From NCBI GenBank assembly GCA_015501075.1, contig JADNYJ010000018.1, forward strand, positions 1-64,000: 64,000 nt of DNA, given 5' to 3'. The DNA is from Gymnopilus junonius. Taxonomy: Eukaryota; Basidiomycota; Agaricomycetes; Agaricales; Galerinaceae. Below the pieces are notes generated by a model, which saw nothing but the letters and a program-made list of their open reading frames with translations, did no database searches and was not told the DNA's origin. Of the stretch, positions 3,982 through 63,639 are shown one piece after another (within the stretch, counting starts at the first letter, position 1; each line of letters opens with the position of its first letter). A program made the position numbers and the translations under genes.

Positions 3982-3983
3982 CT

Positions 3984-4109: not shown

Positions 4110-4111
4110 TA

Positions 4112-4137
4112 AGGTAGGCGTCGCTCTAATCCAGCAC
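4112..4137 (+). repeat. Left TIR of DDE transposon
   Basis: Inverted partner of 22889-22914 with 25 of 26 positions identical; preceded by TA. Confidence 0.75.
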
Positions 4138-4193
4138 GTGTTTATGTAAGCAACAATCGACCTGCCTTTGAGCACTTTCTGTGCTTCCACAAC

Positions 4194-4201
4194 AGAAGTA
4201 T
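4194..4201 (+). repeat. hAT target-site duplication, left
   Basis: AGAAGTAT, identical to 8932-8939. Confidence 0.93.
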
Positions 4202-4491
4202 TAGGGCTGCGCACCGACCCGTCACGGGTGTCGGCCATCGAAGTGACGCCCGTTACCCGTTCATCTGAGACCGATGACGGGCACGGGTGGTCTTTCCTTT
4301 AGGCCTCGACGGGATGGGTCAGGCAGTAAAGTGCCCGTCAACGGGTTGTGACGGTCTGACGGGTGCATGAAAACTCCTTTCTTTAGCAATCTAGCTCAAA
4401 TTCGTGTACATGACGAAGAAGTATAAAGACATATTCATTGTAATCCATCTGCTAAATACCATATACATGATTTACATTTCAAATCTGTTAC

Positions 4492-7400
4492 TTACGAGAA
4501 AGTGAAAGGCGTTGAAGGCGAAGCTTCTGCTTCAAAAGCATCAAGACACGAATGGTTGATGGATGCAGGCTTGCACGTCATAAGGAAATGGTATCTCGTC
4601 CACCAGAGAAAATCCTTTCGACAGCAACAGCAGATCCTATAGAAGTTCTCAGAGAAATGAGCATAGTTGAGAAAAGAAAGACCAACCAGGAATGGCGAGC
4701 ACATCGCATGCAAGTCGATAGACATTAGGGAACTGTGCCTGTCTACCAACCCACCATTTGAGTGGATCACAGGAGTGAAGTCTTCATGTGGCAATTTGAA
4801 ATACTCCTTGAGCTCGTTGACAGACACCTTGTCCTTCTTGTACCGAGAAGTGAAGTTTATCTTTGGCATTGTCTGCTGAGTTGACGCTGAAGCAGTTGTC
4901 AGAGTAGACGAGGTCCTGGAAGTGGATGGTGTATAGCGGCCCGCATAATGAGCATTGTAGTGGTCATGAAGTTGCCGTTTGGCCGTCTCGAGATAGGACG
5001 ACAGATCTGGGTCAGAGGCATAATCATCATGAATCCCCTCATATGAGATGTGAGGGTCAAGCACTACAATGAAGAATAGGTACCTTCTCAGCATACAGAT
5101 AAATGGCCCAAGGATAGACTCACATGCAGCCCAAGTATAAAATGGGGATTCGTCGTACTTGTAATAATACTCTGAGAGCTTGATATGGGCATTCAGCAGT
5201 CCAACCTTTAGTTGAGGAGGCGCAGATGAAGGAAGAGTGGTAAGAATTGACTTGATCTCTTCTTGAAGTCCACGAAATATTGCATGAGTTGTTGAAAGCA
5301 TGGGCTTCTTAGTAGTCGACATCTGTGTTGTCGCCTCACGGAAATGGAAGAGCCAGGTTGTGACCTTCTTGACCGACTCCCACTCCTCATCAGAAAGCTC
5401 TAGAGCCCGAAGGTCTTTCGAGTGCAAGACAAAGGAATGAATGTTTGATTGGAAGGCGAGCGCGCGAGCTGACAAGGAATTAGTAAGTATTCAACAAGCA
5501 GACCAAAAGAATACACACCAAGCATCTGATGGGTAGATGACCAGCGAGTCCTGACATCAAGGATCAGCATGAGCGGCTGCTTCAGGCTATTTGGTGTGTT
5601 GCTTGACTGCAAGGTAGCCTTGACTTGAGTGAGCCAGCTCTGCTTACATTGCGGACTAGAGCGGACAGCCCGAACAATCTTTCGCAGCTACAATGGTGTC
5701 AAAAATAGTTCATATATAGTCTGTAGTTACTATACCTTGTCAACACTGGAGAGAATGCTATCTGTAGTACTTGGGTTAAGCTCAAGAGGATCCTCAGAGT
5801 TGTTATCATCTGCTGCAGCCGCCTGTTCGTCCGCATCTGAACCAACAATAGTGGTCGCAGATTCCTGATAATTCCCACTTCGGGATCTCGCCATCTTGGC
5901 CTCCGAGTCCAATATGACACCAAGACCTTCAAGGAGCTGAAAACGATGTGTTAATGACGTCTGGCCATTGAATAGACAGACATTGATACATACCTTGATT
6001 GCTGCCAGGTGGACTGTGTGAGGGAGACAGCGAAGGCGAATCCAGGCAGCATTGAGAATAATTCCAACGGTGGCAGCATGGTCGACAATGCCCTGGACAA
6101 GGGTATCATTATTTGTAGCATTGTCCATTACAAATGCCATGATCTGAAATTGATACCATGGTCAGCTAAATTCTATAACGCTGTTGTCAAGAATGTACCC
6201 GATCTTGGATGCCAAAGCAAATGAGAGTTTCCCAAACAGCCTCCACCATATTCTTGCCAGAATGCTCGCCAACAAGCTCTCAGAAATCTATAAGCAGTTC
6301 CTCTGCATTGGAGAAGGAAAATGAGTAATAATTGGTATTTGACAGATGAAGTACTAACCTGCATCACCATCCTCCGTGGCATAGTGAGCAACAATAGCCA
6401 GAAAGGCAAAATTATTGCTGGATGTCCAAGCGTCAAGCGAAATGCTGATCTTTCCCGGAAGTTTCTATTTATTGCCATAAGTATCACAAAAAAGGGAGTG
6501 GTAATGATACTTACAGCAAACATCAACTTTATCTCGTCTATTCCTTCACTGCCCATCTTCATGACACGTCTCTTGATGGTATCCCGGTGTGGAACTGAGA
6601 TCTCCGGGGTCTTGTGATGAACATATGAGAGGAGAGCACAGAATTCCGAGCTGTCAACCGTATCAAATGGCTGGTCAGTGGTGACGATCCATTCGACAAG
6701 GAGCTTCTCAAACTCCTGCTGATCCCATGGACCCTGTAGACAAATTAGAAAAGGGTATACTAGATAAACATGATGGCTTACCGAAGCTGCTGCAGCTTGT
6801 TTCTCGAAGGCGTGACGAATGTCTGCCTGATCAGACTGAAGAGACTTGATGAATTCATGGTGCTTCGCTGGGTCGAACATGGTCTTGCCCGACGCTAAGT
6901 CGATCTCCTCCTGAGTAACTTGACGGCCAACCATAGCACTGTAAAGATTATACATAGGTGCTGATGCCGACTTGAGGTTTCGAATAAGTTCTAAATTCGA
7001 TCATATCAGTATAGGTCAACAATGAAAGAAAATGAACGTACTCGTAAGATTATGCCGTCCAGCCTTCGTGACCGTAACGACTGTGCGATTGCCATGATAG
7101 CATTTGTAGTGCTTGTCTCCATCCTCTCCGGGCTGTTGTAGGCTGTTCTGCGCAACAGTCTCATAGAAATAATAGATTGGATTTTGGGTCTTTGTTGTCT
7201 GTTCGTCGTGATAAGCCAAAAAGTCTCGTACAAACCAAGATCCATTACATACTGCAGCACCACCAATTGGTGCACTTGCCATGCTCGCATCATCTGCAAG
7301 GCTAGCAACAGAAGCACTCGCTACACTTGCCAGTGATGTACTGGCAATGCTGGCAATGGAAGGTTGAGTCGAAAGCCGACCTGGCTTGGCCTTGTTGCAC

Positions 7401-8019
7401 TTGTGTTTTGAACCCTTGCCCACGGACGGCATGAGCTTCGAAGGAAGGAGGAGCGCAACCTGGTATGAAGAGTTAGACTACGAAGTCAAAAAAAGATAGA
7501 ACCCATACCTCGTCATTTGGAATATCTTCGACATCGGATTCTTCAGATTTGGACTCAGAGGCAGAGCTGAAATCGTCGTCGTCTTCATCCTCGTCAGCAG
7601 TACGCAATTTCTTGCACTGCCTTCGAGACTTTGCACGGTTTCCTGCATTAGCAGGCTCAGGCTGACCCCACTCATCAAGCTTCTCTTGCTCGAGAGACTT
7701 CTCGTATCGCCCAAGGTTCTTCGCACGCTGAGGGCGACCTAGAGAAGTCAAATAAAAGCATGTTATTGAGCAGAAAAGAATGGCAGTGAGTAGAGAACTT
7801 ACCAGCTGCTGGGAGTGAGGATGTGTCTCCTCGAATATTGCTACGAGGTTCTAGGACGAGCAGTTTGTCTACTAGAAAAGTATCATTACATTAGAGAGGT
7901 CTGAGATGTCAAAAAAGAAAATCTTACTCACCATTCTTTGGGATCGGGGCCTTGTCGCTCTCAGAAAAGTAGAACTCATGGTCATCTGCTGAAGCGAGCT
8001 GTTGATTGGGCTCAGACAT
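4492..8019 (-). pseudogene. hAT transposase, disrupted
   Basis: A multi-exon transposase frame runs from an ATG at 8017-8019 to a TAA at 4492-4494. The N-terminal part is acidic and low-complexity. It is followed by a Ser/Ala-rich stretch and a possible zinc-finger-like domain (C and H around 7080-7110). The catalytic core includes FVMDNATNND and RLRCLPHTVHLA (both near 6010-6130), and the C-terminal dimerisation region has VYRLACDVLAIP joined by an intron to GSAVAVERIFSGGRD. Two lesions are visible. There is an in-frame TGA at 4578-4580 inside the dimerisation domain, where CGA is expected, and a one-base frame change near 4770 just before the conserved tryptophan pair. The element therefore probably cannot move itself. 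Confidence 0.85.
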
Positions 8020-8931
8020 GACGATACTGATGAGTTATCGCGCTCAATTTCCTCGCTTTTAAGTCTGTGAGCGAGCCTTATCGATCGCTAAGAAAACATC
8101 TGATAACTCACGGATATCTGTGCCGTTCCTTCTTTCCATGTGCAAATGGGCAGCTGAGCTGTTTTTCAGGACTGTAGGAGCTATGTTATCGAGGTCCTGA
8201 AGAGCGAAAACAAAAGAATGAAGCATGCAACATGGTCAGCACCTCGAAAATTTCAAAGAAATGGGGATAGACTCACAAATGTTGGATAAAAAATGTGCTG
8301 AAAAAGGGAGCGCAAAGGGCTGAGGCTGGTGCACGAGTTTTGATAAGGAATGAGGAGAGTCATCTGTGCTGAAGGCGGCATGGTGCATTTCAAATCAGAA
8401 AGATTTTTGGCCCGGAAAGCCGACCCAACTGAGGGTTGGAAGGAAAGAGGGAACCTGGGGCGGTGACAGGCTCAAATCTGCGTGCTTTATACCTCTTCTC
8501 CAAAGTTTATAAGCCCATTGTCAAATTCACAGCAGCGAAGAAGTCAAGGGAAGTGTGTAGTACGTGGCAACAAGGACGAACACGAAGAGATTCACATCAT
8601 CTAAATTTAGATAAGGGCCATTATCGCAAACCCTAAATGCTATCTCGTACCTGATATGGGTGATCTCCGAATACCAATCCACAAATCGAGGCATGAGGAG
8701 TACCCCGGAATAATGCCTCCCTGACTCTCCCTGACTGAACAAGTACTCTAAGGTGTCTACCTGTCATACCGTTGCTACCTGTCGACGGGCGTTTTCCGAT
8801 GGTCAGAGACAGGTGTTGCCCATTGAAATAATGGGCGTCATGACTGGCCTCCCTTGAGCTGACGGAATGGGCTGGGTCACCCGTCATCCATGCCCGTCGA
8901 CCCGTCATGACGGTGACGGTGTGCAGCCCTA
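8020..8931. other. Non-coding 5' part of hAT element
   Basis: Upstream of the transposase start I see no convincing reading frame. The last about 170 bases carry the GACGGGT-type subterminal repeats and the right TIR. Confidence 0.6.
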
Positions 8932-8939
8932 AGAAGTAT
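8932..8939 (+). repeat. hAT target-site duplication, right
   Basis: AGAAGTAT, identical to 4194-4201. Confidence 0.93.
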
Positions 8940-9272
8940 TTCACAATTGAAGACCTGGGAAGTGTAGGGAGGATGTATCTCTTCCATTCTCAGGTCGTAA
9001 AATTTTCACTTAGTCCTTGGTTGTGCAGTAGTTACACTCACAAAATATTTTCTCCCCTTTTTATCTCTACATGCTTTAAACATTGTTTCCGCAAGATTCA
9101 GAGATTTTTGCATTTTTGGGAGCCTGAGATTTGGCCACTTATATAATGGTCACGTGATCTGGTGGGTGGGCGGGAGAGTGCAATATTGCCATGCTCCTTC
9201 CTCATTTTAAGGGTTCAAACAGTGTTATGGTGCAGCAATAAAATTTATTTTACATATCTACACCTACCTACC
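8940..9272. other. 5' non-coding part of DDE transposon
   Basis: AT-rich sequence continues the DDE transposon after the hAT insertion and leads to the ATG at 9273. No other gene is seen. Confidence 0.5.
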
Positions 9273-10263
9273 ATGCCTAAGAAGTCTAAAGCTGCTCAGT
9301 CTCACATTAATAACCTCAGATCAAATGCACAGAAGTCAAAGCAAAAGCGGCCTTCAGTAACCATTGAAGATGTTGAGGACAGCAGAGAATTTCTTCTTGA
9401 GTCTTCATCACATCCTCAAGGCAGTACTGATCAGACAAAGGAGAATACCACAGAGGAAGGATTTATTTTCTATGGTGAAGATGGATCTCTGACCTTGGTT
9501 GGCTTCTTAGAGGACCTTGGAGAGGATTCACTCCCAGACTTTGTTATCAATCAAGTTGACAATACTATTGACATTTTTGAAGGCAGGACAAATGGACTTG
9601 CTACAGGTTTATTCATCTTTGACAATGCACCTAGCCATCAAAAATATGCAGATGATGCACTCTTGGCAAGAAAGATGCCAAAAAACCCTTCAGCCACTTG
9701 GACTCATCGCAAAGGAGGTGCTCATATGCATACCACTACACTTCCTAATGGTGAAACTCAATCATTTTATTTTGATGATGACCATTCTACCATACCGGGC
9801 TGGTTCAAGGGCATGGAGAAAATTATCCAGAAATGAGGCTTGTGGAAAGATGGCTTACTTGCACAATGTGAAGGTTTTAAATGTGTTCAGGGAAAGACTG
9901 ACTGTTGCTGCTGATGCCTTCTTTTTAACCAACCTGACTTCATTGTGCAGAAGTCCCATCTCAAAGAGTTTATCACCTCATGTGGCCACATTTGTGACTT
10001 CTACCTGAAGTATCACTGTGAGCTTAATTTTATCGAGCAATACTGGGGTGCTGTCAAATTCTGTTACTGCAACACCCCCAAAACAAATGACATTGATGAG
10101 ATGGAAAGGAATGTGATTGCCTGCCTTGATGACATTCCATTGCTTCAGATCCAGAGGTACTCACTCATAATCTTTCATTCGATAATGGACTGACATCTTA
10201 TCTATAGATATGCAAACTGGTCTGCCTAGTTTATCTCTGCTTATGACTTAGGCTTGTCAGGAG

Positions 10264-10268
10264 CAGAG
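10264..10268 (+). repeat. Gypsy target-site duplication, left
   Basis: CAGAG, repeated at 22686-22690. Confidence 0.9.
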
Positions 10269-10619
10269 TGTGACAATGAGTGACCTATGACGTCTGTGCT
10301 ATCTTGTTATACCTTGTGACAGTTAGCTTTCTTTATATTATTTACTTGTATTATTTTTGGAAGCCTATCCTATGTAACCTGGTACCTCTTAGGATAGACT
10401 AATTTTTTGAATAACTACTACTATGACCTTGCTCTCCCGTTCGATCCCCTATGCACCCTCTTAGGCTGAGCATCCACTTCTGCTCCCCTGTCGAGGGTGA
10501 CATGACTTCTCACCTAGAATCACAAGGTAAACCCGCGGGTCTAGAATCTGTACCTGCTACTAGATCTCCAGACCTCGCTACCTCCTGCGGATAGGGTCCT
10601 GCGACTGCGCTGTGTCACA
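10269..10619 (+). repeat. 5' LTR
   Basis: 351 bp, starting TGTGACAATGAGTGACC and ending GTGTCACA. It differs from the 3' LTR at nine substitutions, all transitions, plus a small indel near 10410. Confidence 0.95.
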
Positions 10620-10640
10620 ATGGTGGGGGCACCACAGACC
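10620..10640 (+). promoter_or_regulatory. Putative tRNA primer-binding site
   Basis: Directly after the 5' LTR the sequence begins ATGGTGGGGGCACC. TGG followed by a run complementary to a CCCCCACCA tRNA 3' end is the usual form of a primer-binding site. I do not assign the tRNA. Confidence 0.55.
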
Positions 10641-10842
10641 CTATCCACAAAGGAAGCCTCAGGATGTAGGGTCACTACAGCTTCCAGCTGTAGGGCTAAC
10701 ACTGAGACTACCCACTTGTCTGATCGGACTCCTGTCATTGGAATGATAGGATCCTGCAAGGACAAAGTGTGCATCCAGCCATAGTCTGGTTGTCTGCACA
10801 AGTAATCATGATGGAGCTGACTGCTGGAGTGCTGAACTACGT

Positions 10843-13800
10843 TTGGAAACCACATGTACCCTCAAGAATGTGTTTACAATGCCTATTGCTACCATGCAAA
10901 CTCAACACGATGCATCCAGCCAGACCAAGCTATATAACTCCAGCCCCCTCTCCCACTTTCGACAAAGTTATCATCCGGCCTCTTCTGCTATGCCCTCGGG
11001 TCACCTATCTGAAACCTCGTCATCTAGTGCTAGGAAGGTTATGAAGCCATCCCTTTTTCCACTTAAGCAAACTCCCTACCCTTCCGACACCATCGCCTCC
11101 TCATCCAGGAAAGTGTCCAGGAGGACTACCATGGAAGAAGTACCCGACCTGGATTCAAATCACAGAGGCTCCCCTCCTATTCCGCTTGGAGGGCCCTATT
11201 AATGCCTGCTGACTCAGTCGCGTCATTCACGGAAAGCAGAGGGGGATCCGGGTCAAGAAAAGAGAATCAGGGAGAATCCTTCCATGTCGAACAAGCCCCT
11301 TCTGAAGCTGAGACCTTACAAGCCCCTGATTCTACTCGAGGAGTGTGATTTGCTAGTCTCCCTGAAAGGCCTGTCTCCTTGTTCGAAGGTATCCCACATA
11401 TGAACAAACATTGCCTAGTCGACAACACCATTCAATCCGCCATTCTCCACTACTGCTTCCCTTTTGATCCTCTGAGGGACTATGACCCTCTTATAGAATA
11501 TGGAGCTATCAACGGAGTTTTGCCTGGAAAATCGGACAAAGAATCAATCCTAATCTGAGACATTCTGCTTTGATGGTCTGCTCCGCATAGCCAGTGTAAC
11601 TGGGATAACCTATATTCAGCAGTTATGGATTTCGTCAAGGTGAATATCAGTCTATCTGACATCATCAAAGTAGCAGACATTAATGGAGACAAGAGATACT
11701 CTATGATCGCCAACAAACTCCTCAATATAGGACATATGCTAATGGCCCTTACCCAAGTCTTGAGGGAATTAGCCCAATATCTGTATAATGAGGATAAACT
11801 AGCTTTCGCTGTTGACCCTAGCTACTCCCTGCTGCGTTCACTAGCTTCGAGCAAAACTTGCGAATCTATAATCCTCTCTCATCCCCTGCTGAAGAAAAGA
11901 TGTGGAGTTGGACTCAAACGTGTCCTGGGATTCCTTAATCTGCTCAAGAAGGCGTACCTCCCAGCTGAAGAAGCTTATTCGATCTTGTCTTATGAATCCA
12001 CTTCCCCTTCAGAGAGACTCAAATATTGGGAAATGTCCCCTCAATCCCTGATCACCTCCTTTACAGCTCGAGAAGATCTAGCCACTGATTTGAGCGATTC
12101 TGCCAAAGCGGCTCGATTAGCTCTCCTTGATGAAGAATGTCAAAGAGGAAAATCATACTTGTCGACCCCTTACTATCATCGGTCATGAGTTGAAGGTGTA
12201 GTCACCCCTCAAAGCATTTTAGATCAACGAATAGCCATGCAAGAATCAGCGGGGCAGAATTACTCAAGCACTCCTACCTCGGCCAGCTTCTACACCCCTC
12301 AAGTTCAATTTCATTCTGCTCCTGTCCCTCCTGAAATACCCACCTCCATATCAGCCTTCTCTAGAAATCACCCCATATCCACATTCCCAGGCATAGGTCG
12401 CCTTCCCCCTCTTCCTACCTCTATGCTTCCTAATATGACTGGGGGGCCATCATCGACGCAGCAATGGACCCAAGTTATTGATCGAAACTCTTTACTCAGA
12501 GCCCCCGCCTGCTTGGAATGATCCTCCTCTGAACCTAATCATCAATCCCCGGTAACTCCCGGAGTTTATGCATTACAAAGGGAGAACTCAAGCGACCTGT
12601 TAGAACAAGGATACCCTATTGATTCTGAGTTGTTTGGAGGCCACCAAGGGAAAGAAGCGAATTATAACAATGAAGGCAAAGAAAACCATAGCGGAGACAG
12701 ACGAGGCCATTATGAAGGCAGATCAGGTAATGAAAGGTTGCCAGGACCTCGGGGGCTGCCTGGTTTCAGCAGATCAGGTTGGCCAGCTGGTCCTGGAGGG
12801 CCTGGATTTCCTGGAGGAAGCAGTGGAGGTAATGGGGGGCCTGGGGGAAATGGAGGCAGCAGTGGAGGTGGCGGCAGAGGCAGACCATTTGGCTCTGGCA
12901 GTAATCCTTCATTTTTTCCAGGAAGACAACTCCTGCCTGGACTGCCTGGACCCCCAGGACCGCCCCAAGGGCCTAATACTCCCATTGGAGCCTTCTACAA
13001 TCCTCCTTACTACAATAGCTGGCAGATGAATTACAAGATCAGCCCTTCGCAATTACCTTCCTGGGATGGAGAGGGTATATCTCTTATCGACTACCTACCC
13101 AAGATGGAAACTCTTGCTATACTCGGTCCGCAAATGAAATCTGGCATGGCCACTGTGGCTGCACAAAACTGGGGAGGCCAAGCCAGAAACTGGTGGGAAA
13201 CTCTTCCTTCAGCAGAAAAACTCTTCTATTCTTTCAACTGGGACAATATGCTCTTAGGCATTCATCAACACTTCCTTAACAAAAATTGGTGGCGAGATAG
13301 AACACGTGAATTCAAAGAAATGAAATTCCATCAAAAGGGGTATGACTCAGAGAAGCCGGTTGATTTCCTGCAAAGACGAATCAAGTACCATCAAATCCTC
13401 TTTCCTGATGACGTGGATGGCTCTAGAGCAGTTGCCCAAATTCTATACACTCAACCTGTGGAATGGTTCATTGAGAGAAACTACCCCACTATCGCTGAGC
13501 TACAGGAAGCGGCTAATCGATTATGTGACTCATTATTGGTGCAACATCAAATAGCGGAGAATATTAGAGCCCCTTCCAGTTTGAGACGATTCCCCCGTCA
13601 CCCTTATATGCACCGTTTACAAGCTAATGCTGCAGATGTCCATTCTGAGGAAGGAGATGATGACCCCCTTTCCGAAGAAGACAAGGATATCTTCGCTTCG
13701 TCCTCCAAACCTCAGTCCAAAGGTCCCGTAAAACCTCATTCGGACAAGTTCCCACAAGGGAGAACTATAGACAGCTACTCCTTTATGCGAAATGACTCGG

Positions 13801-14123
13801 TAGTCAGCACTAAGCTCCCTAATGGTGTCTGCTTTATATGCACTAGTCCCAAACATTTCTACAAGGATTGCCCTCATTTCGGCAAGTTCGACTCTCTTCG
13901 TAGAGCCAATTTGATTACTGTAGATCTAGATGAAGCCCAGGAAGAGTCTATGGAGAGAGAATATTTAGCTATGCTCACGGAATCTAAATCCTCCATTCCC
14001 CTTTATAATCCAGGTGATGAGAAAGAAGAGGACAGGATAGTCAACCTCGCTGACATCCATTCCTCAGTATTCACGAGCCTTCATGCATTGCCATCCATTC
14101 AACCTAACAGAAATTATTGGTGA
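10843..14123 (+). pseudogene. Gag-like polyprotein region, disrupted
   Basis: The frame can be followed from about 10843 to 14123, broken by TGA codons at 11346, 11556, 11571, 12186, 12519 and 14121, with the reading frame resuming identically behind each. The middle (about 12720-12990) encodes an unusual Gly/Pro-rich, collagen-like stretch such as GLPGPPGPPQGP. After it comes the capsid-like core with WGGQARNWWETL and a helix-rich segment. A zinc knuckle follows at about 13831-13872 with the spacing C-X2-C-X4-H-X4-C. It would package the element RNA and form particles. The low-complexity insertion and the long N-terminal extension are atypical. Confidence 0.75.
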
Positions 14124-14126
14124 AGG

Positions 14127-17100
14127 GTGTCCTTCGAGGATAAAGGAAAGGAACGAGCGCCTGTTGACAAGATCCAGCCTAACTGGAGTTCATGCCGATC
14201 CCGTTTAAAATCTCGAATTTCCGTTAACCTATCCACTGGCAAATCTGAAGCAGAAGTAATCAATGAGGATAGCGAGGCTTCTGACTTGTCTGATGTTAAT
14301 GGCGCCCTAGATGCTTCCTCTTTGCAAATCAGAAAACCTTCTATTATCATAGCAAAAAAGGGCCGCAACCACCCTGAAGGAATGGGCTCCGTAGGATCAA
14401 GAGCACTACACATCAAGGCCTATGTCTCTTACTGGGAAGCAAATCCTGTTCAAGCATGATTAGATTCTGGAGCTGATATCACATTAATGTTGGAAGAATT
14501 CTATACTTCCCACCCTAACCTACCTGCTCTGAAGGCTGGTATGAGAATGAATCTATATCATTTAACGGGGAAGGCCAAAGTGCTGGGATATGTCAAAACC
14601 CTCTTATTCACTAAGACCCCAGAAGGCTCCCTCATTCAGTTTGACTTAGAAGCATACATTGTTCGTGGAATGCGCGTTCTGTTACTTTTAGGAGAGGACT
14701 TCCAGTCTCTGTACGAAATCGGGTTAGAAAGATTGGCTTTGGGCCATTCCTCTGTCCTCATAGGAAAGGAGCCTCGAAAAAGGATAGAAGCATCATCGGC
14801 CACTGTGGTGGATCTCCGGTTCGAAATAAGACAAGCCTTCCTCTCACAATCCTGGGTTTGATCCAAAACTCTACGCCGAATGAAAATCAAATCCAAGAAT
14901 TCAAAGATAAATCTCAACTCCTATGTCGTTGCCTCTGAAGACTGTGTAATCCTGGCTGAATCGGTCAAAACTATAAAAGTGGACACCCCTTTTGGACTGC
15001 AAGAGGAATGGCTCATTGAAAAATTCCTCATAGGAACTGACTCAGCTGATGTTTTAGCTGCTCCTACCACCTTTATCCTCGCTTCAGACCCCTATCTATC
15101 TATAGCTAATCCTAGTCCCAGACCTTGGTGCATCAGAGCTGGTGACATCATAGGAAATCTGTTAGATCCCAATTCATTGGACCACCCTACTGAAAAACTT
15201 TTAGAACAATATGTTGCATCCACAGAGGGAATCAAATCTCTAATACAGATCGGCCTTGCTCAAGAAGGACTTAATAGGGAGCCTGTTGAGTTCAAAGAAG
15301 ACAGACTAACTGAAGACAAATCTTGGGGACCTAAAACTACCACCCTTCCTGACAAATGGACAGAAGGTGACATCGCTCAGCTTGTCAACTTGGGCCTGGA
15401 CATCCCTGCTGAAATCCGTCCTAAACTAGCAGACATTTTGCATAGAAATGTGAATGTGTTCGGAGTAAACGGTCAATTAGGAAGGGTAAATGCGAAGGTG
15501 AAAATACCCTTACAACCAGACACTGTGCCGATTTCAGTACCAATGTACGCAGCATCACCGGCGAAAAGAGAAGTGATAGGGAAGCAGGTCAACGCATGGT
15601 TCGAAGCAGGAGTAATTGAACTGTCTGTAAGCCCTTGGGGATTTCCAGTGGTGGTGGTTTACCATAATGGGAAACCCCATTTGGTTATCGACTATCGTAA
15701 ACTCAATGCGAAAACCATTCCAGATGAATTCCCCATCCCTCGACAATCCGAAATCATCCAGGCTTTATCAGGATCCCAAGTTTTATCTTCATTCGACGCG
15801 CTGGCTGGATTCACGCAATTGGAAATGGATGAATCTGATAAGGAGAAAACTGCCTTTCACTGCCATCTCAGGCTATGGCAATTTAAGAGAATGCCCTTTG
15901 GTCTTCGGAATGGCCCCTCAATATTCCAATGAATAATGCAAATGGTGCTCACACCCTTTCTGTGGTTATTTGCTCTTGTCTATATCAATGACATAGTAAT
16001 ATTCTCCAAAAACTGGGACGACCACTTGAAACACTTGAATCAAGTTTTGAACGCCATCAGCAATGCTGGAATTATGTTATCGCCTGCGAAATGCTATATT
16101 GGATATTCTTCAATTCTCTTGCTTGGCCAAAAGGTTTCTAGATTAGGATTATCCACCCATGGCGAAAGGGTAGCCACCATAACTGAATTGGAACGTCTGC
16201 GTAACACCCCCGACCTTCAAAAGTTCTTAGGCATGGTCATTTATTTTTCGCAATACATTCCATTCTATTCCTTCATCGCTGCTCCCTTATTCGCACTCCT
16301 GCAGAAGGGTGTCAAGTGGCATTGGCTAGCCAAGCACAAAATCGCTTGGCAGCAAGCAAAAGATGCTCTAATCACTGCTCTGATCCTAGGACATCCTATT
16401 CAAAATTCACCATATCAACTGTATATGGATGCTTCAGACATAGCTATCGGATCTAGCCTACAACAAGTGCAACCCATCCAAATCCGTGATTTGAAAGGCA
16501 CTCCCATTTACGATTGCCTTTTGAAAGCTTGGGAAGACAAAAAATCTCCCCCATCCTTGGTAACAACTCTTATCAAGGATTTCAAGGAATTTACCCCATC
16601 TACTTCATGGGGACCGACCTTTGAAGATACAATCGTTCAAGTGGAAAGGGTAATCGCTTACTGGAGCCGCTCTCTATGCCTAGCTGAGCGAAACTACAGT
16701 GCAATGGAACGTGAAGCCTTAGCTGCTAAGGAAGCCCTCATCAAATACCAACCATTTATCGAAGGCGAAAAATTATCCTAATCACTGATCACACTGCTCT
16801 GCAGTGGGCTCAAGTATATGAGAATGCAAACAGGAGATTAGCGGCATGGGGGGCAGTGTTTGCAGCATATCCTGGATTGAAAATAGTTCATAGACCCCGA
16901 AGAGTACACTCTAATGTGGACCCCCTTTCGCGTCTTCCAAGAATTCTGCTGCACACCTCTCCTGTCATTGATGTCTCAGATACCATAATCCAAGAAGAAG
17001 AGAAGTGCACCTTAGCTCAACTAGTGGAAGAAAGAACCAGACTCACTCTGGCTCCTAGAGTGGCCTTTTCTGTTTGGTGGTGGGAAGATGTAGTTGACAA

Positions 17101-18828
17101 ATCGGCATTTCAAACAAAGACTAGGAGACAAAGATTATGGGAATCGGAAGAAGAAAGAAAGGAGAAAGCAGAACTTCCTGATAACAAGAGATAGTGGATG
17201 AGCTACCCTTCCCGCGCGAAGATCATTGGACTTATCCCTCTGGAATTAAAGCCCCTCCTACGGAATTAGAAGAAGATTGGAACTCAAGGTCCCACTTGCT
17301 AGTATCCATCAATCCCGAACTTATAAAGGATTTCATCAAGGGCTATGCTTCTGATCTGTTTTTCAAGAAATGATATGTAGAGGAAATTCCGAACCCCAAT
17401 GTGGTTATAACTCCTTCTCATTTTCAAAGAGTTCCGATGGGTTACTCTATTACCTGGATGCTGATTGGAAGGCTCATCTTTGCATGCTGAGAGCCATGAT
17501 CGACTTTGTATTGAAATGGATTCATGACTCCCTGCATGAAGGTGCTCACGAAGGTTATAAGAGGTTCACTGCCAGGCTACAAGAAATATTCTACTGGAAA
17601 ACATTGCTCAAGGATGCAGAGAGGTTTGGCTCAACTTGTGATGTTTGCCAGAAGATTAAAGCCGATCACTGTAAAGGAGTAGGCCCTCTCCGCCCCGCCC
17701 ACATACCTCATCGTCCTTTCGCTACTATATCCTTGGACCTGATTACTGGGTTACCTCCTTTGGGAGAAGAAAAGTTCACCACGGTATTAGTAATGGTGGA
17801 TAAATTAACCAAATTTGCCATCATAATCCCTATGCATGACACTTTATCTCAGGAAGGATTCGCGAAACTTTTCATTGAAAGAATTGTAAACGTCTATGGA
17901 TTCCCTCAATGCATCATATCAGACAGGGATAAAAGATGGGCCATGGACTTTTGGAAATCTGTGGTGTCATGCTATGGCAGCGCATTAGCCCTATCTTCCT
18001 CTCATCATCCTCAGATGGATGGCCAAACCGAAATCCTTAATGTGACTATTGAACAAATGCTATGCGCCTACATCGCCGACAACAGGTCCTCTTGGTCCGA
18101 ATGGCTTAGTGTCCTTACCTTCACCTATAACTCTTCTGTTCATTCTTCTATGACTTACTCCCCCAATTTCTTACTGTATGGATATAATGCTCAAATTTCC
18201 ATGGAACCCTTCGACATCAATTCAGACCCTGTATCTCGTCCGTTCCTGCCCAGTATGAAAGCCGAAAACTTTGTTCGAAGCCTAGACATCATATGAAAAT
18301 CAGCTAGAGATGCTCTCATGCTAGCTCAAGAAAAACAAGCCAAAGCCTTCAATAAAGGGAAGAGACCGCCGGATGACATTCAAGAAGGAGATCTGGTCTT
18401 GATAAACCCGCATACACTAAAATTGGTCGACATATCCAGAACTGGCAAAAAACTAGTACAGAGAACCATAGGTCCATTCGAAGTCATGGAGAAAATCAAT
18501 CCCATGGTATATTGACTTCGTCTGCCTGACTCCTTCCCTATGCATCCAGTTATCAATATTGCACTTAAAGAAATATCACCCATCTCCCACCGAGTTCAGT
18601 AGCCAAGTCACCCTTCCCAGTACTCGAGACTTCCTTGCTACGCCTGAATATGAAGTAGAAGCCATTTTAGGGCACAAACTTATGGGCAAAAAGAAAGGGA
18701 ATCGAAGAATGTTCCTTGTGCGAAGGGCTGGATATGGCCCAACTGAAGACTCCTGGGTCTCGGAATATGACTTGAGAAATGCTCCAGAAATCAAAAGAGA
18801 GTATCTAGCTTCCTTGGAAAAGGTTTAA
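14127..18828 (+). pseudogene. Pol: protease, RT, RNase H, integrase, chromodomain, disrupted
   Basis: Domains in order are: aspartic protease with LDSGADITLM (14460-14490); reverse transcriptase from about 15540 (LVIDYRKLN, FDALAGFTQLEM, MPFGLRNGPSIFQ); RNase H with TDHTALQWAQ near 16790; integrase with an H-H-C-C finger (17520-17650) and the catalytic DDE set at SLDLITG, IISDRDKRW and DGQTEI; then a chromodomain (18645-18828) expected to direct integration to methylated-histone chromatin. Stops TGA lie at 14457, 14859, 15930, 17371, 18294 and 18513, each consistent with former CGA. One-base frame changes are seen near 16776 and 18562. The RT catalytic box is YIND rather than YIDD (15981-15992), so the polymerase is dead independently of the stops. 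Confidence 0.92.
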
Positions 18829-19250
18829 TCCCTTAATTCTTTCAAAATTTACCCTGTTCCTCTCATAGTGTCAGAACTTCATTTACTTTACCTACAATGA
18901 ACAACTTGATTAACGTAGAGATGCTCTTATTCCTTTTGTTTCATTTTCATTAATGTTGAAACTGCTAGTCAAGAATTCTTATCTAGTTAGAAATCTAATT
19001 ACCTTCCTAAAAATATGGTCCATATTATGTAATTTAGTTAGTATTCTGCATTTCCCTTCTATTCTTATGCACTCTTCACTCTTTTCTGTTGTACGGTCTG
19101 CTAAGCTGCGCCTCATCATTGGCTAGTCGGCTGAACACATAAAGTATCGATAGGAATCAGTCGGAAGCTGCGTCCTACCGATTGCGCTCTGCCTGACCTA
19201 CTATCGACTGAAGAATCAAAAGAGAAATCGATAATCGAGCTGCGCTTATG
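18829..19250 (+). other. AT-rich spacer inside Gypsy element
   Basis: This separates the chromodomain from the downstream frame. No reading frame of note was found; it could hold a splice or promoter signal for the third coding region. Confidence 0.4.
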
Positions 19251-19252
19251 GG

Positions 19253-20645
19253 TTGCACCTGATACCTCGAATTCAACTCAGCCTCCTTTCTCGTAGACAG
19301 CTACTACTTGCCATGTCGCAATCCCGCTGGACCTTTTCCTCTCCTCGCCAGTATAGCTTCACTGGGTATGATAACCTCCCTATGGTTTCGGAAGCTATGC
19401 GCTTCTATTTGCCCCCTTTCCAGCTGGCTTCGCACAGGATCATTCACTCTAATTCAAGATATTGGGAGCTATGGTCACCCAACTCTTCTTGACTAACTTT
19501 CTTGCCAGGCTTGAAGGACACGTATGTCAATCTGGAAAAGGACATCCCGGAGGATCGGAGAAGGTGCGATGGCCACTTAGGATGGTTTGACCCAATGGTA
19601 TCCCCCCAAAGTTTCGATCCCAAAAAACCTTGGCTTGGATTCATTCAATGGTCTTCCAATGTTCCACATGCTGAGTACGTTCCCTTACTCAAAGTATGGC
19701 AACATACCATTGCCCCAAACCATGGATTCTTCTGACCATCGTTCATACGGGACTTAAGGAACCGGGTTACTTCAGTAATAAAAAGATATGGAAGCTGGAC
19801 CGATATAGCCTCCTCTCACCTGGCTCTATGGGCTAATCGCCCTCTATTCCCTACTCCGAAGGATATAGACCTTTTGAACGATATGATTTCTTTCAACACC
19901 GCAGTAGATTCTCTTTCAAGGATCCAGAGGGGCATCAAATACATGTCTGCCTGGTTCAGAATGGCTCATGCTCTCTCTGAACAAAACTTTTCCCCGTGGA
20001 TTAATATCGAATGAGTCCCTCAAGCTGATGAAGCTCTAATGGGGGTGTGGATCAATGACTGCAGCGAAGAATATGGGTTATGGCTTCTCTTCCACAAGGT
20101 TCCGTGCTACATCGTCCACATCGTTAATGACTCTGAGAGGGATTTGGAATGTGTCTTCAATTGCCTACTGCATTATCAATCATTTACCACTTCTACCAAT
20201 GTGGAACTCCTTGCCCTGCATGTCAACCCCATCGATCTGATGGTTAAAATGGAAAGTCAAGGCAAATCCATGCTAACCAACTGGCCAAATGATTTCACTA
20301 TATGCCTGCCAGATCAGTACCCACTCCCATGATCTCTGACTGAATTCACTCCTCCCCCATAGGTCAAGGATTGGAAAATGGCCTATACTCAGACCCTAGA
20401 GCCAGCCTACTGTTGCTTCTGTTCCTGTTCAGCAAGCCTGATCTTATATTGAAGTCAATGGCTGAATCCAACCTCCTCGTGTAGCTGAAGTTCTTCAAGG
20501 GGTTAGATGGATAACTTGGGAGGAAGACACTACAGATGAAGGTGAAAGATGCTATATAAAAAAGGGGAGGAAGAACGAGGCATCAGGCAAGGTCTACTAT
20601 GATCACGAGAAATGCAGGAGGCTTTACACTATGGAAGAACCTTGA
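19253..20645 (+). pseudogene. Third coding region of Gypsy, unknown function
   Basis: Past the integrase a further protein-like frame reads through TGA codons at 19733, 20012 and 20330, again with the frame kept on both sides. Recognisable features are a Trp/Pro-rich segment KPWLGFIQWSSNVPHAEY, then RDLRNRVTSVIKRYGSWTDI, and MGVWINDCSEEYGLWLLFHK. Composition is that of a folded globular protein, not of an envelope: there is no signal peptide and no membrane segment. Similar unnamed proteins are, as far as I recall, frequent in mushroom genomes. The role is unknown. It could act in integration, packaging or host interaction, but this is a guess. Confidence 0.6.
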
Positions 20646-20659
20646 TTCCTTACAACTAG

Positions 20660-22336
20660 ATGCTGACATGGACATATTTGGGCTGCCGCTCCGATCTTCC
20701 TTTCTTTGAAAGGACCAACTCGGGTCTAGTCACCAGGAAAGGATGGATTGGATTTATAAAACAGAAAGAGCTACAAATGCCACTAAAGGTCTAATTTTCC
20801 AACAACCAGACTACTCCTCTGTAACTTCGTCTGCTCCCCCTCTGCCTTCACTCCCCAGCCTTACAGCTCTTGAAGAATGAGAAGCGGAGACATCTAGGTC
20901 ACATCCAATTGATTTTCGAGCAGATGTGATGAGACCCTCTCAACCTTTTCATTATGAAGGAATGGTTGCTCGCCATCGCTCCGATCTATGAGCCCGAGTG
21001 TGTTCCTAGTGGTGGAACCAGCTCCGGCCTAAGGCCGCTGACCATCACTTGCCTAATAAACCCCCCAGAGCTCCTGCCGCCATGCTAAGGAGAAGTCCTT
21101 CCCCTTACCCTCGTCGAGGTGCTCCCCATCCCGTTCCCCAATTAAGGAACTCTATACTCATCAAAGTCCTGTAAGGCTACCGCATAATGCCGCTCCCCTA
21201 GGCAATCACCCAGCGCATCCCGCTTCCATAATGATGTTCAAGGAGAACAAGCCATGGATGTGGATAAAGAGGACAAGCGAAGTGAGAGAAATGACTTGAG
21301 AAGCAAGGAGGGAAAGGAAGAGAGGAGAGACTGATCTGAAGGAACTGCTAGGGAACCAGCCCTACTCAAAACCATGAGGTCGTCATCCCTGTTGTCTCAC
21401 TTGAGCTCCCCTGTTGATTCCCATGTAACTCGAGCTCCTTTACCGTTAGCTGCCTGCTTGAATGTCGAGCTCTCATACCTTCATCGAGAACAGATGCTAA
21501 GGAGTGATGATGAGGAAGAAGAAGGCGAAATTATGGACTATGAGGATAGCAACATGGCTCTAGCTCATTACGATCCATCTATGGCAACCCAGATTGATCT
21601 TCCGGGGACCCTTAGAGCTCCACCTATCAATGTTCTGTCTAGGATATCGGAAGGCAATCAGACCCGTTACCTATGCATTTGGAGTTTGGGAGCCTTCTTT
21701 ACCTGGCATGATGTGATATCTTGGATCAACTCGCTACTCAGATTGTTGGGATGAAACGTCAAGTTAGAGCATGTTGTCCACTCATACAAGAAGGCACGCA
21801 AGTCTTTTGGTTAAAATTCTGTTCTCTACAATCTGCTTTATCTTTTCGTGGGTTAATTGCCTCAAGAGATACTGAAGACTCTAGAGACATTCATTGTGAC
21901 TTTGTCCATGGGAACCTCTACAATGATACGAGCAGTCATTCTCGAGATGCTTGGTCCCCAGCATGGGGACTAGAAACTCAACAATCAGTAGCTGCTCCTT
22001 TCCGGATTCAAGGATTGAATTTATTACCCCTTGCCCAATGATTATCAATTGCTCCTGCTGCTCCATCCACTAGGAACCAACGTCGTCGTCTGGCCAAACA
22101 TGCTGCCTCAGCTCCTAACTTGTCTTCATCATCGAATCTGCAATACTGCTCTCCGTCCTCTCCTCCTACTGCAGGTCCTTCAAATATTAGTTCTTCCCAA
22201 CCTGCTGCTTGCCCCTCTCCTTCTTCCCCCTCTAAACAAGATGCTCCTCCAACCTCAGACCTTAACAAAGGTCACTTCAAATATCGTGGATATTGATCCA
22301 ACTATAAGGGCAAAGCTCACACAGACGGGGGGGCGA
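20660..22336 (+). pseudogene. Fourth coding-like region of Gypsy, basic/acidic tail
   Basis: Patches of open frame continue to the 3' LTR with several stops. They include a charged region near 21270-21330, an acidic patch DDEEEEGEIMDYED (about 21506-21547), and a later globular part around 21620-21960 that might be an RNA-binding-like fold. A Ser/Pro-rich tail runs to about 22290. I do not recognise a defined family. Confidence 0.4.
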
Positions 22337-22685
22337 TGTGACGATGAGTGACCTATGATGTCTGCGCTATCTTGTTATACCTTGTGACAGTTAGCTTTCT
22401 TTATATTATTTACTCGTATTATTTTTGGAAGCCTATCCTATGTAACCTGGTACCTCTTAGGATAGACTAATTTTTCGAATAAACTACTATGACCTTGCTC
22501 TCCCGTTCGATCCCCTATGCACCCTCTTAGGCTGAGCATCCACTTCTGCTCCCCTGTCGAGGGTGACATGACTTCTCACCTAGAATCACAAGGTAAACCC
22601 ACGGGTCCAGAATCTGTACCTGCTACTAGATCTCCAGACCTCGCTACCTCCTGCGGATAGGGTCCTGCGACCACGCTGTGTCACA
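22337..22685 (+). repeat. 3' LTR
   Basis: 349 bp, starting TGTGACGATGAGTGACC and ending GTGTCACA. A G-rich tract just upstream (22325-22333) is the likely polypurine primer for plus-strand synthesis. Confidence 0.95.
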
Positions 22686-22690
22686 CAGAG
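22686..22690 (+). repeat. Gypsy target-site duplication, right
   Basis: CAGAG, identical to 10264-10268. Confidence 0.9.
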
Positions 22691-22888
22691 GTGGCATGGG
22701 TTAATAAAAGATACCATGGGCATTGCACACTGCCCCCAATCATGCTCGCAACAGTACGACAAGCTCAAATTAACATGTCTGCACCTTTGTAGCATTATTC
22801 TGAGCATTTTTCACCTCTACAAACTTTTGAATTTTTTTGACTTGAAGATTTGGCTGCTCTTGGTGCTTAGTAATACAGATTACATAAG

Positions 22889-22914
22889 GTGCTGGATTAG
22901 AGCGATGCCTACCT
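22889..22914 (-). repeat. Right TIR of DDE transposon
   Basis: Inverted partner of 4112-4137; followed by TA at 22915-22916. Confidence 0.75.
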
Positions 22915-22926
22915 TACTTCTGTTTG

Positions 22927-26577: not shown

Positions 26578-28501
26578 CTACAATTCGATCCGCTTCTTCC
26601 CAATATCTCGACGCTTCTTATACAAGTCAAAAGCAGGAGAGGCGCCCGCTGCTTGGAGTTCCAGGGCAATCTTCTCTGCACCTTCCATAACACGTAACAG
26701 GTTGCCGCCCGTCAGTCCAGCAAGTTCGTATTTGTTCCATCCCCGTCGGTACAGCTCAGCAATCTTGAAGTGGATCAATTAAGAGATTGCGATAAAACCA
26801 TGGTAGTGGTGTGCTCACCAAAACAGGATATTTAGATACATCCTCCAGTCCGACAGGAACGTCCCCAATGCCATCGAAGTCACTACCTAGGCCGACACTG
26901 AGCATCACAGGATTAGGGACCGTCAGGACGTTAGATGAAGACATTTTACGCACTGCTCCTTGCCGGATACTTGTGCTATATGGTCAACGTGATCAGCAAC
27001 AGCTTCGACTGTTGCCTTTCCAGGGGCAGCAACAAAGAAAGGCGCAAAATTGACCTGCAGTAAGATAAGCCATGTTAATGGCTACAAAAGATGAAATATG
27101 AAGGCCAATTACCATCACCACTGCATCCGTCTTGTTTTCCCCATGTCCGATGAGTCGTAAAATATTGTCGGGAACATTTCTGGGAACATCATGGACAGCC
27201 CGAGCAGATGAATGAGACCAAATGACTGGTGCCTTCGAATGCGCGATACCCTGTTTTGCAGTTGCATCAGAGGTATGTGAAAGATCGACAAGGACGCCCA
27301 AGCGGTTCATCTCATCAATCAACACTTCTCCAAGAGGGCTACAATCATGGAACTTCCTCAGATATAAACCAGAATGAGATGTAAGAAAGGATGCAACTAC
27401 CTCAAGCCACCATGTAGTGGAATAATACCAGAATTGAGCCCGCAGGAGTCCGCGAAGGCATTGTGGCATGTGTGAGTGAGTGTGACGTATCGAACGCCAA
27501 GGTTATAGTACTGTCGTAGGACAGCAATCGAATTGCCTAGTTGATGACCTCTGCAATGGACACGATGAGGATCCACATTGCATCAGGAGATATGCACATA
27601 CCCTTCCACGCCGAGGAGACTGGCAATCTTTCCTTCTGCTACGGCAGTTTTAACATCTTCCGAAGTCAGAGCGAGGGCAAATGTCTAGTAAAAGGAAATG
27701 AATTGCTTCCATTACAAAGTAAGAGAAGCAACTGTACGTTGGGATATTTAGCGATCAGGAGCTTCGAGACATCGATTTGTTCCAGTGTATCGCTAGAAGA
27801 TATTCATGCTTAGGAAGACCCGCACAGGAACTTAATTTCTCAAAGGGCACGAACCGAACTTTCCAAGTTGCTCCTAGAAAATCCCAGCCCGCGGCTGCAG
27901 GGTCTGGACAGGAAACATAAGTGGACCTAATGTGCAGGATAGTATGTCAGCATATGCATTTCATGGCTGCACGGCTGATTCGACTAACCAGAAGAAACCG
28001 CCGACTTTGCCTTTCCTCAATCGAGGTATATCGACATGTCCAGGCATCTCCGACTCGAGGTCAACCGCAGAGGCATTGTTGCTGTACGAGCCACGGACGA
28101 GGATAGGAAGGTCTACAAAAAGAGATCGGAAAAAAAAAAAGATTAGATGATACAAATGCAAACCAATGTGTCCATCCTGTGAGAGCCGAGATAAGAACTA
28201 GACAATAACTCAAGCACGATATGCAACGCACAATGACTGGGGCTTTGTCGAGGATGGCCAACGCAGCTAAGTGAGGGTCTTTCGGCAATTTGCCTAACCA
28301 GGGGGCGAACGCATCCCCGAACAGGCTCTCAAACCCAACCAGGAGGATAATGGCAGCAACGAAGAGCACAGTCAGAGAACCCCACACGGTAGCCCGGACC
28401 TTTGGGTTTGACTTGGTGGCTGTCTGGATATCGGTGTGTTCTTGGTTGCCGTCATTGGCAAGGAGAGGCGAATTCTCAGTAGGGTGGCCATTGGAGGACA
28501 T
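26578..28501 (-). CDS. Membrane dipeptidase (peptidase family M19)
   Basis: A zinc-dependent dipeptidase of the renal dipeptidase type, which cleaves dipeptides at the cell surface or in a vacuolar or secretory lumen. The start at 28501 gives a cytosolic Ser/Asn-rich tail and one membrane anchor (about residues 40-60, [12 protein letters not shown]), so it is a type II membrane protein. Metal and active-site motifs follow: [44 protein letters not shown] and LGSDFDG. The C terminus is [13 protein letters not shown], stop at 26578. There are about ten introns. The first zinc-binding motif is on a 13-nt micro-exon (28164-28176). The length matches the family. Confidence 0.9.
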
Positions 28502-28904
28502 GACGGAGCATGAAGGAAGAGATAGTTCGCCTAATGTGCAGAGCACGACGCAGAGGGTCTGTCGCTGCGGGAACTACCAGCGTCCGCATGTCTGCATCAC
28601 CAATTCTTGTCGGTTAAACGTCATCGGTGGGAAGGAAGACTCAATAAAAACTTAGAATTGCGACATGTTTTCAAATTTTAACTGCAGTACCGTTTTCGGC
28701 TCGTTTTAAAATCTTTGTCAGTTTGAAGAAAATAAATGTGCTAAAATACATGCGTCCAAGAACATCCGTAACGTGGACGAAACAAAGGGTACTAAATATA
28801 TGAATGCAGACACAGCGAGAGGTACTAATAAGAGTGTAGACGACATCAGTACTTATCCGACGATGTTCTACTTTTCCAAAGGCTAAAAACCAGCATGAAT
28901 TGGT
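28502..28904. other. Intergenic region
   Basis: Promoter side of the dipeptidase gene and 3' side of the fumarate reductase gene; no gene seen. Confidence 0.5.
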
Positions 28905-30979
<2,075 letters not shown>

Positions 30980-31501
30980 TTCTAATTGTGCAGCGATTTG
31001 TGAGGTGGTGATGGTAGGGAGTGAAGGGGCAGGGTACGGATAACTGGAACTCTTATAGCCTTCGCATCACGGGGTAATTAGTCCCGGGTGCGGACACATG
31101 TGATTCCGCTCATACTGGCAAGTCGCCGGCTCAGTGAGCCAATGGCTCTTGCGTTTTTACTACGCTCCTTTTATGAGCCCACATATTTAAGCTCCTTGCA
31201 ATGTTTTTACTCCACATCAAAGTAAAGACAATAGTATCACATCGGAGTAAGAGTGGCAATTCCAAAGGAAAGGCCTGCGGCGTTAGCAAAGTCTACCCAC
31301 CCGAGTTTACCACTGAGGGTAACCCCACTGAAGACCGGAATGAGCTTGTCAATGATTATGGTCGAACGGACTAGGCCTGGGTCGATTATTCTGGTTCACT
31401 AAATATCACGCGGGAAAGTCAGGAACTTTCAGCTGCTGAAGTTAATATTTGTCGAATTACAGCTCGATCTATGACAAACTTATACGCGCTGCATACTCAT
31501 T
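30980..31501. other. Intergenic region
   Basis: Promoter side of the fumarate reductase gene and downstream of the riboside kinase gene. A CCAAT-like box occurs at about 31138-31142. No gene seen. Confidence 0.5.
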
Positions 31502-32644
31502 CTACAGACTCTCGAAAGCATCTTTGATCACGTTGCAGCAGCGTTCGACACCCTCTGTCATCGAAATGTCTAAACTCTCCAATAGCGTCAGGTCTTTTAT
31601 CTTACTCGTCGGCTTGCCGTGCTCCACGTCTCCATCCTCGAAGAGGTCCTTGTGTGCTTCGACGTATGCTGGATAAACTACATCGTCCCAGTAACCAGGA
31701 GGATCGCGCCATAGCGAACCCTCTGGGTCAGATTGGACTCCACGAGACGGTATCCGAACGCATCACCGCAATTTTATTCACCGAAAGATACGCAATGAAC
31801 GGAATAAATAACCGACGGCGTGGGGAGGGAAATATGAATTGCAGGTAGGGGATGAAAACAGTTAGTTCGGGATAATATAAGGGAGACAGCAATGCAGTTT
31901 AATGCTATATCTTACCAGCTGTATGATAACCGTGCCTCTCGTGTCGACGTTTCTTAAGCACGTCATAAGGGACCCGCAACATTATCCGGACATCTAATTG
32001 GTCGATCACGTCCTGTAATTTATTGAATTAATACGAAGAAGCGAAAACTTGTACGGGTTGAAGACATACCTGATTCCAATACAGTAAAAAGCCGTCTACC
32101 AGGCCCCAAATGATACGTTCGTTGAGTGCGTCTTCCTTCTCTGCCTTGATGTGTTTGAATTCGTTGATCCACTTGGCGCGAACTTGAGGATCGATCTTAA
32201 TTTCTTTCTGTTCATTGAGATGGTCGTGACTGCGGTGGTCAGGAGGAATTTGGCCCGTCTCTTTGACATTCTGAAGGAACTTGACGAGACGGTGCCAAGT
32301 TATTGCGCCAGCAGGTGCATCCCAGTCTTGAACATTGTGTATCGGATGGAGGGGGACAAGCTCCTGGGGCTGAAAGGAGTGAGGAGGGCGATTAAAAGGA
32401 CGGATGGTGGCTACACACCGGGGCAAAATCCTGCATGACATTGTCAGAATTGTGAGGCAGGAAGGGCAGCTTTACTTACGTCCTGATGGATGATAACACT
32501 ATCAGGCAGGATGCTCCTGAGATGCTTTGCAAGAGTGGTCTTGCCCGAGCAAGTTGCACCGCTGAACGGGTCTCTTGTCAATGGCTGTCTGGGAGAGCGA
32601 AAGAGGGCTCACCCGACACCGATCAAGATGACCTTTGTCTTCAT
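31502..32644 (-). CDS. NRK1: Nicotinamide riboside kinase (NRK family)
   Basis: This phosphorylates nicotinamide riboside to nicotinamide mononucleotide in NAD salvage, in the cytosol. The start is at 32644 (MKTKVILIGVG). The Walker A motif GATCSGKTTLAKHL spans an intron. It is followed by SVIIHQD and DDFAP (the substrate-binding Asp), then VQDWDAPAGAI and, after another intron, DVRIMLRVPYDVLKKRRHER, the lid Arg region. The stop TAG is at 31502-31504. There are about five introns. The gene is divergent from the mitochondrial protein gene at 32773. Confidence 0.88.
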
Positions 32645-32772
32645 GATTGTGGTGGATAACTTGCAAGATAGATGAGTCACGTGTCATGCGTCATGGTCTC
32701 TGCGTCATTGCAGCTCCTCTGATTTATTAATATATATAAATGAGGCCCTCCAATGCTGCAACATGTCAAACC
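32645..32772. promoter_or_regulatory. Bidirectional promoter with TATA-like box
   Basis: 128 bases between two divergent start codons. A TATATATAAA box at about 32730-32740 lies 33-43 bases before the plus-strand ATG at 32773, and so fits that gene. Confidence 0.6.
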
Positions 32773-41680: not shown

Positions 41681-41830
41681 TTGCAGTCTTTTTCTTACTA
41701 CAAAGATGGGAAGCACAGGAAAGCAATCTGCTCCGCATACATAGTGGCTGTGCCCGAGCTGTGCATACACTTCCACTCACCGTCCATTAATATGTCAATT
41801 TGACAAACCCTGTTCCAAGGGCCAACATCA

Positions 41831-63637: not shown

Positions 63638-63639
63638 AG

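Follow-up and report, generated by a model that had tools for sequence, protein, structure and literature searches.

Transposons of Gymnopilus junonius, a wood-decay mushroom of the Agaricales, carry C-to-T change concentrated at CpG dinucleotides, and comparison of copies shows this CpG-specific change in three transposon families. The central case is a 12.4 kb Gypsy-type long terminal repeat (LTR) element lying in a nest of transposons within a 64,000-nucleotide stretch of the genome (the window), which sits on the contig labelled C90 of the assembly surveyed (58.0 Mb, 898 contigs). Reverse transcriptase (RT), ribonuclease H (RNase H) and integrase domains were matched in this element using Pfam. 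The spectrum of change is centred on CpG, and the changes were acquired after insertion and copy by copy, with near symmetry between the strands and to a graded extent. The best explanation of this pattern appears to be that transposon CpG is methylated and then gradually lost through passive deamination, and we give it a probability of about 0.72.

The Gypsy interior of the window was compared with close copies, or parts of copies, on six other contigs (C91, C112, C187, C200, C409 and C725); a seventh contig, C517, carries an LTR piece of the element and is not part of the comparison. Such a multi-copy alignment had been proposed beforehand as a potential refutation of CpG-specific decay, and in it C-to-T change came out enriched at CpG. 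Summed over the six copies, 2089 pairwise differences were observed, comprising 1989 transitions and 100 transversions, and 1803 of the 1989 transitions lay at CpG. There is no CpA preference in the transposon changes: in the comparison of the window with C112, 490 of 526 transitions were at CpG and plain CpA sites, taken on either strand, contributed 13 (7 and 6).

Former CpG sites were tabulated from alignment columns with at least four rows, which gave 474 inferred sites. C187 was kept out of this table, as it overlaps with too few other copies, and nearly all of the sites lie before about 19,050, beyond which too few copies extend. The numbers lost were 275/474 in the window, 184/434 in C91, 339/471 in C112, 229/308 in C409, 375/465 in C200 and 111/165 in C725, that is, 42-81% per copy; in Gypsy pieces the loss ranges from 33 to 83%. 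These are minimum values, because sites lost identically in every copy go unrecognised. Non-CpG minority bases in the same rows amounted to 0.29-0.75%, and the excess of change per CpG cytosine over other bases was 59-170-fold in the six rows.

As regards the structure of these copies, C409 and C725 may carry the two halves of one Gypsy copy. The pieces on these contigs break off and resume at about 15682-15689 with an overlap of 8 bases, and those on C112 and C187 do so at 21066-21070 with an overlap of 5 bases, as if the copies had been split by later insertions. A related element of the second family described below is present on both C409 and C725.

Since the two LTRs of one insertion start out identical, changes between them must have arisen after insertion. 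The preliminary description of this DNA had counted nine differences between the LTRs of the window element, all of them transitions and eight at CpG, and our count agreed exactly. The C200 copy differs between its own LTRs at 21 positions, with 21 transitions, 17 of them at CpG, so that the two insertions pooled give 30 transitions out of 30 differences, 25 at CpG. A presumed LTR pair of the second Gypsy family had 10 of 22 CpG sites changed, against one other difference.

The nest around the element provides a relative order of insertion. Comparison with other copies showed that an element named DDE hosts a hAT-type element and, separately, the Gypsy element; the DDE element is therefore older than both of its guests. 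It spans 4110 to 22916, with 28-nt terminal inverted repeats (TIRs) and an apparent TA target. The name DDE and the name hAT are both those of the preliminary description, the latter joined by an 8-bp target duplication, and no transposase match was found in Pfam for the open reading frame (ORF) pieces scanned from the hAT-type element, nor any Pfam match for the two scanned from the DDE element. Nesting order agrees with composition, in that the host is the most CpG-poor: the CpG observed/expected ratios were 0.16 for the DDE core, 0.72 for the hAT-type element and 0.49 for the Gypsy element, and 0.83 for the flank at 27-64 kb. The TIR mismatches were CG/CA in the DDE and hAT-type elements and TG/CA in an outer 35-nt inverted-repeat pair (3947-3981 and 24381-24415) that surrounds the whole nest.

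The preliminary description had further read the in-frame TGA codons of the nest as former CGA codons. All 18 of the codons it named do read TGA, 4578 doing so on the minus strand, and they include 9834 and 9912 in the DDE element. That they interrupt open frames held for the nine from 11346 to 15930, where all nine stops of the frame are TGA, and for 18294 and 18513. It did not hold for 17371, which lies in frame 1 (position modulo 3) whereas the integrase ORF at 17355-18296 is in frame 0, nor for 4578, which by arithmetic is out of frame with the ORF at 4492-5490 that spans it. The codons at 19733, 20012 and 20330 share one common frame and are merely plausible, with TAA at 19232 and TAG at 20360 just outside; they also lie outside the site table. 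Over the whole Gypsy interior the TGA share of stops in the three frames was 47/100, 72/192 and 97/192. A CGA origin was borne out at 10 of the 15 listed Gypsy codons, where other copies carry CGA; of the remainder, two were TGA only and three had other non-CGA codons.

We examined how the changes fall within single copies. Over all Gypsy rows the products were TG 739, CA 765 and TA 9, where strand independence would predict 251 TpA; in the second family 2 were seen and 160 expected. This rarity of TpA means that the target was an intact CpG at the time of change. Single rows vary in TG and CA (65 and 46 in C725, 97 and 129 in C409). Based on the dinucleotide excess of the window element (TpG 1.21, CpA 0.96) a strand asymmetry had been considered, and it was dropped because the pooled copies lose CpG about equally both ways. 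A runs test revealed no strand clustering in the six Gypsy rows (z from -1.48 to 1.26), loss was even along five of the six (p 0.098-0.89), and joint loss at a site was close to the product of the single-row fractions, as for copies hit independently. Loss also depended on the preceding base. In Gypsy it was 0.49 after A, 0.36 after C, 0.28 after G and 0.22 (0.219) after T; in the second family 0.45, 0.23, 0.19 and 0.15 (0.150); and in the hAT-type family 0.107, 0.094, 0.070 and 0.043. The order ACG>CCG>GCG>TCG is thus common to all three families, with TCG the lowest, and the TCG preference that characterises the Pucciniomycotina form of the signature was not seen in any of them. This context order resembles the mutational signature SBS1.

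The second Gypsy family has about 69% identity to the window element and was found at 13 loci. Nine of these (L022-L030) had lost 34-62% of 286 CpG sites, with other change of 0.10-0.50%, giving an excess of 85-397-fold; the more distant L021 and L031-L033 were left out of this table and loci L039-L053 were not used. One pair of copies differed at 68 of 173 CpG sites (39%) against 4 of 4199 other bases, and another at 38% of CpG sites against 16 of 4182. In the hAT-type family, four copies had lost 9-27% of about 163 CpG sites, the window copy 43 of 162 inferred former sites in the part compared, and the excess was 15-156-fold, a figure for which each copy contributed 3 to 12 other changes. 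Two derivatives of about 400 bp with an internal deletion (C342:9156-9552 and C257:202849-203245) were also observed for the hAT-type element; they retain 241 and 159 bp of the stretch used as query, with 98-99% identity.

As a control we used a 4.3 kb stretch present on two contigs at 99% identity, around a match to the glycosylase domain HhH-GPD. Between the two, 5 of 192 CpG sites and 28 of 3935 other bases are changed, which by arithmetic makes the excess per cytosine about twofold, so that this single genic pair has almost no CpG bias. The two stretches may be allelic, in which case they are no test of duplication. Candidate enzymes were searched for in the same genome. At least four loci carry a C-5 cytosine methyltransferase domain (PF00145) over the cut-off; no RID gene was identified from the exon pieces of these loci. 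HhH-GPD loci are present. PF03167 gave no match in the genome, a negative that we do not trust, given that loci were picked up with the NCBIfam ung model when the E-value limit was relaxed (best E 1.2e-27, all below the family cut-off). Loss of a uracil/thymine glycosylase as the source of the high excess is not claimed here, since these loci undercut the PF03167 result.

The preliminary description had proposed methylation and deamination of CpG, and this is supported by the CpG-specific change in three families, its near absence from the genic pair and the absence of a CpA preference; methylation itself is inferred. The methyltransferase-domain loci and the methylated repeats of other mushrooms (see below) also speak for it. 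On this explanation, cytosine at CpG in transposons would be methylated by the fungus, and the 5-methylcytosine would turn into thymine by deamination, leaving a mismatch that often escapes repair. The deamination would be spontaneous or linked to replication, with no dedicated mutator. Each inserted copy would shed its CpG sites singly, to TpG or to CpA according to the strand hit; these products would no longer be a target, so that the double product TpA would stay rare, and CGA codons would become TGA and break the reading frames. Methylation with deamination would account for the CpG target, the near strand symmetry, the rare double products, the graded and mostly even extent, the nesting and the spared control. 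The likeness to deamination of 5-methylcytosine in mammals lies in the change of CpG to TpG or CpA on both strands with a single hit per site; the difference is that here the decay shows up in transposons but not in the single genic pair tested, and that the excess is mostly larger.

Several observations weigh against this explanation. For the human germline a figure of 'at least ten times' is quoted (PMC11549043), which the excess here mostly exceeds by far, and one so high requires low background mutation, poor T:G repair or an active step. CpG loss in recent copies does not scale with other divergence (the family-2 pairs with 4/4199 and 16/4182), which is unexpected under a simple clock unless the other differences predate insertion; it leans somewhat to bursts, or to other differences older than insertion. 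Sites lost in both rows had the same product 1074 times and the opposite one 892 times (14 pairs, our own sum), an excess that fits a context preference but would also be caused by some loss shared before insertion. Along C91 the loss is uneven, rising from 33% to 72% of CpG sites near 16019. Regional hypermutation of C91 was considered and dropped, since its non-CpG changes rise from there too (17/4733 before 16019 and 14/1908 from there on, gaps excluded), which fits a mosaic or a joined contig. The genic control is a single pair, its genic status given by the glycosylase-domain match alone, and the age of the DDE element comes from nesting and base composition, without close copies.

The excess and the lack of scaling are also what speaks for an active process similar to repeat-induced point mutation (RIP), in which repeats would be recognised in the sexual cycle and a fraction of their CpG cytosines mutated at each meiosis by a non-RID methyltransferase. 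An excess of up to 397-fold, its presence in transposons and not in the single genic pair tested, and CpG loss out of proportion to other divergence in recent copies would all fit, and basidiomycete CpG signatures have been called RIP or RIP-like, partly or wholly, by their authors (PMC4352252, PMC4457147, PMC4014442). However, losses span a graded range of 9-83% and are spread evenly in five of six rows, unlike a burst; there are no strand runs and few double hits, and the 4.3 kb pair has been all but spared (with the proviso on allelism given above). RIP of the Neurospora type likewise knocks out transposons by C-to-T change, but the changes here are at CpG and not CpA, with few TpA, no strand runs and a graded extent. 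We regard a RIP-like process as possible though unlikely; a slow CpG-specific form of it would be hard to tell from passive deamination. A bolder proposal, which we hold to be doubtful, is a dedicated transposon-directed CpG mutator in Agaricales, independent of RID, working at up to some 400 times the rate at other sites, preferring ACG, hitting one strand at a time and sparing genes, with CpG loss serving as a fine-grained clock of transposon age.

The other explanations fare far worse. If the family had always been CpG-poor, by compositional accident or ancestral bias, the TGA codons would be ordinary stops or reflect a non-standard code, and the window element, in which TpG but not CpA is in excess, did look strand-asymmetric; but some copies keep CG where others have TG or CA in similar numbers (130 and 143 in the window), and CGA stands in another copy at 10 of the 15 listed codons, so that the copy comparison refutes this reading, which we consider extremely improbable. 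Editing of the element's DNA or RNA intermediate by an APOBEC-like cytidine deaminase would suit a retroelement with C-to-T hypermutation, yet the strands are about equal, none of the six rows has strand runs, the change is centred on CpG with TCG the least affected context, and it occurs also in the hAT-type DNA transposon and, after insertion, within LTR pairs; we give such editing hardly any credence. A sequencing or assembly artefact, through haplotype collapse or methylation-linked base-calling errors, could be suspected from C91, which shifts in character near 16019 and ends with its contig like a joined or mosaic sequence, and from some near-identical contig pairs in the assembly. The same spectrum recurs, however, in all three families (six rows, nine copies and four copies), on numerous contigs as well as between paired LTRs, and an artefact is accordingly most unlikely.

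CpG decay in Gymnopilus junonius, where it is unusually clear, fits a process already published for other basidiomycetes. Amselem et al. 2015 (PMC4352252) described CpG-type C-to-T decay of repeats in Microbotryum and, in weak form, in two rusts. In Ganoderma, C:G to T:A accounted for over 87% of the point changes of one species and for 90-91% of those of two others; CpG was preferred and the repeats were methylated, in Ganoderma sinense nearly all affected transposons (PMC4457147). CpG methylation in repeats of Marasmius oreades averages 0.75-0.76 of reads per site (PMC9674265). Our case shares with Microbotryum and Ganoderma a C-to-T change of repeats that falls mainly on CpG and shows no preference for CpA, in a host with C-5 methyltransferases. 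It differs from Microbotryum and other Pucciniomycotina, where TCG is the reported favourite (PMC4014442, PMC4352252), in that loss is highest at ACG and lowest at TCG; this order is no surprise, because an Agaricomycete is expected to show CpG but not TCG bias (PMC4014442). Rhizoctonia solani AG8 is likewise an Agaricomycete with CpG to TpG change, but there genes and repeats are hit alike, and CpG accounts for about 40% of C/T changes (PMC4014442). In a literature search without most subscription journals we found no published counterpart to the measured per-site excess, the rarity of TpA or the full context order, and a search on Gymnopilus junonius and transposable elements found no publication on such decay in Gymnopilus.

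These results provide a replicated and quantitative mushroom case of transposon inactivation through CpG loss, with controls from nesting and from LTR pairs within single insertions. An excess of this size opens two questions to testing: poor repair of T:G mismatches in mushrooms as against an active mutator, and the use of CpG loss as a dating tool for insertions too young for ordinary substitutions.

Table 1. Coordinates of the nested elements and of the composition control in the window
Feature	Position	Strand	Remarks
Gypsy-type LTR element, 12.4 kb	10269..22685	+	target duplication CAGAG (5-bp); CpG-decayed
5' LTR of Gypsy	10269..10619	+	
3' LTR of Gypsy	22337..22685	+	
gag-pol frame of Gypsy (position modulo 3 = 0)	11346..15932	+	9 in-frame stops, all TGA; RT domain
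Integrase frame of Gypsy (position modulo 3 = 0)	17355..18515	+	stops 18294, 18513 are TGA
hAT-type element	4202..8931	-	inserted in DDE element; 8-bp target duplication AGAAGTAT
Element named DDE, left end with TIR	4110..4201	+	
Element named DDE, core	8937..10268	+	CpG observed/expected 0.16; stops 9834, 9912 are TGA
Element named DDE, right end with TIR	22686..22916	+	
Flank outside nest, composition control	27000..64000	.	CpG observed/expected 0.83

The outer inverted-repeat element has two sharply contrasting sides. Its left 163 bp (3947-4109), which begin just after an O-fucosyltransferase ORF (2329-3915), have a CpG observed/expected ratio of 1.33 with 20 CpG, and its right 1499 bp (22917-24415) one of 0.36. 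On the right side, 22927-23691 is a repeat of about 765 bp resembling a miniature inverted-repeat transposable element, with perfect 24-nt inverted ends and 36 near-full-length genome matches at 88-91% among the best 40 of 66 candidates scored. It lies beside or inside a second repeat at 23692-24415, which has 95% copies on C821 and C667.

No allelic contig was found for window positions 1-4109 among the best 40 of 78 candidates scored, nor for 22917-30000 among the best 40 of 66. The contig pairs C352/C457 and C57/C804 carry matching gene pieces, which suggests that the assembly retains some allelic or duplicated contigs. At the left edge of the window, positions 1-1000 have a CpG observed/expected ratio of 0.24-0.35, and 126-485 is a dispersed repeat with 12 near-full matches at 90-95% among the best 40 of 78 candidates scored.

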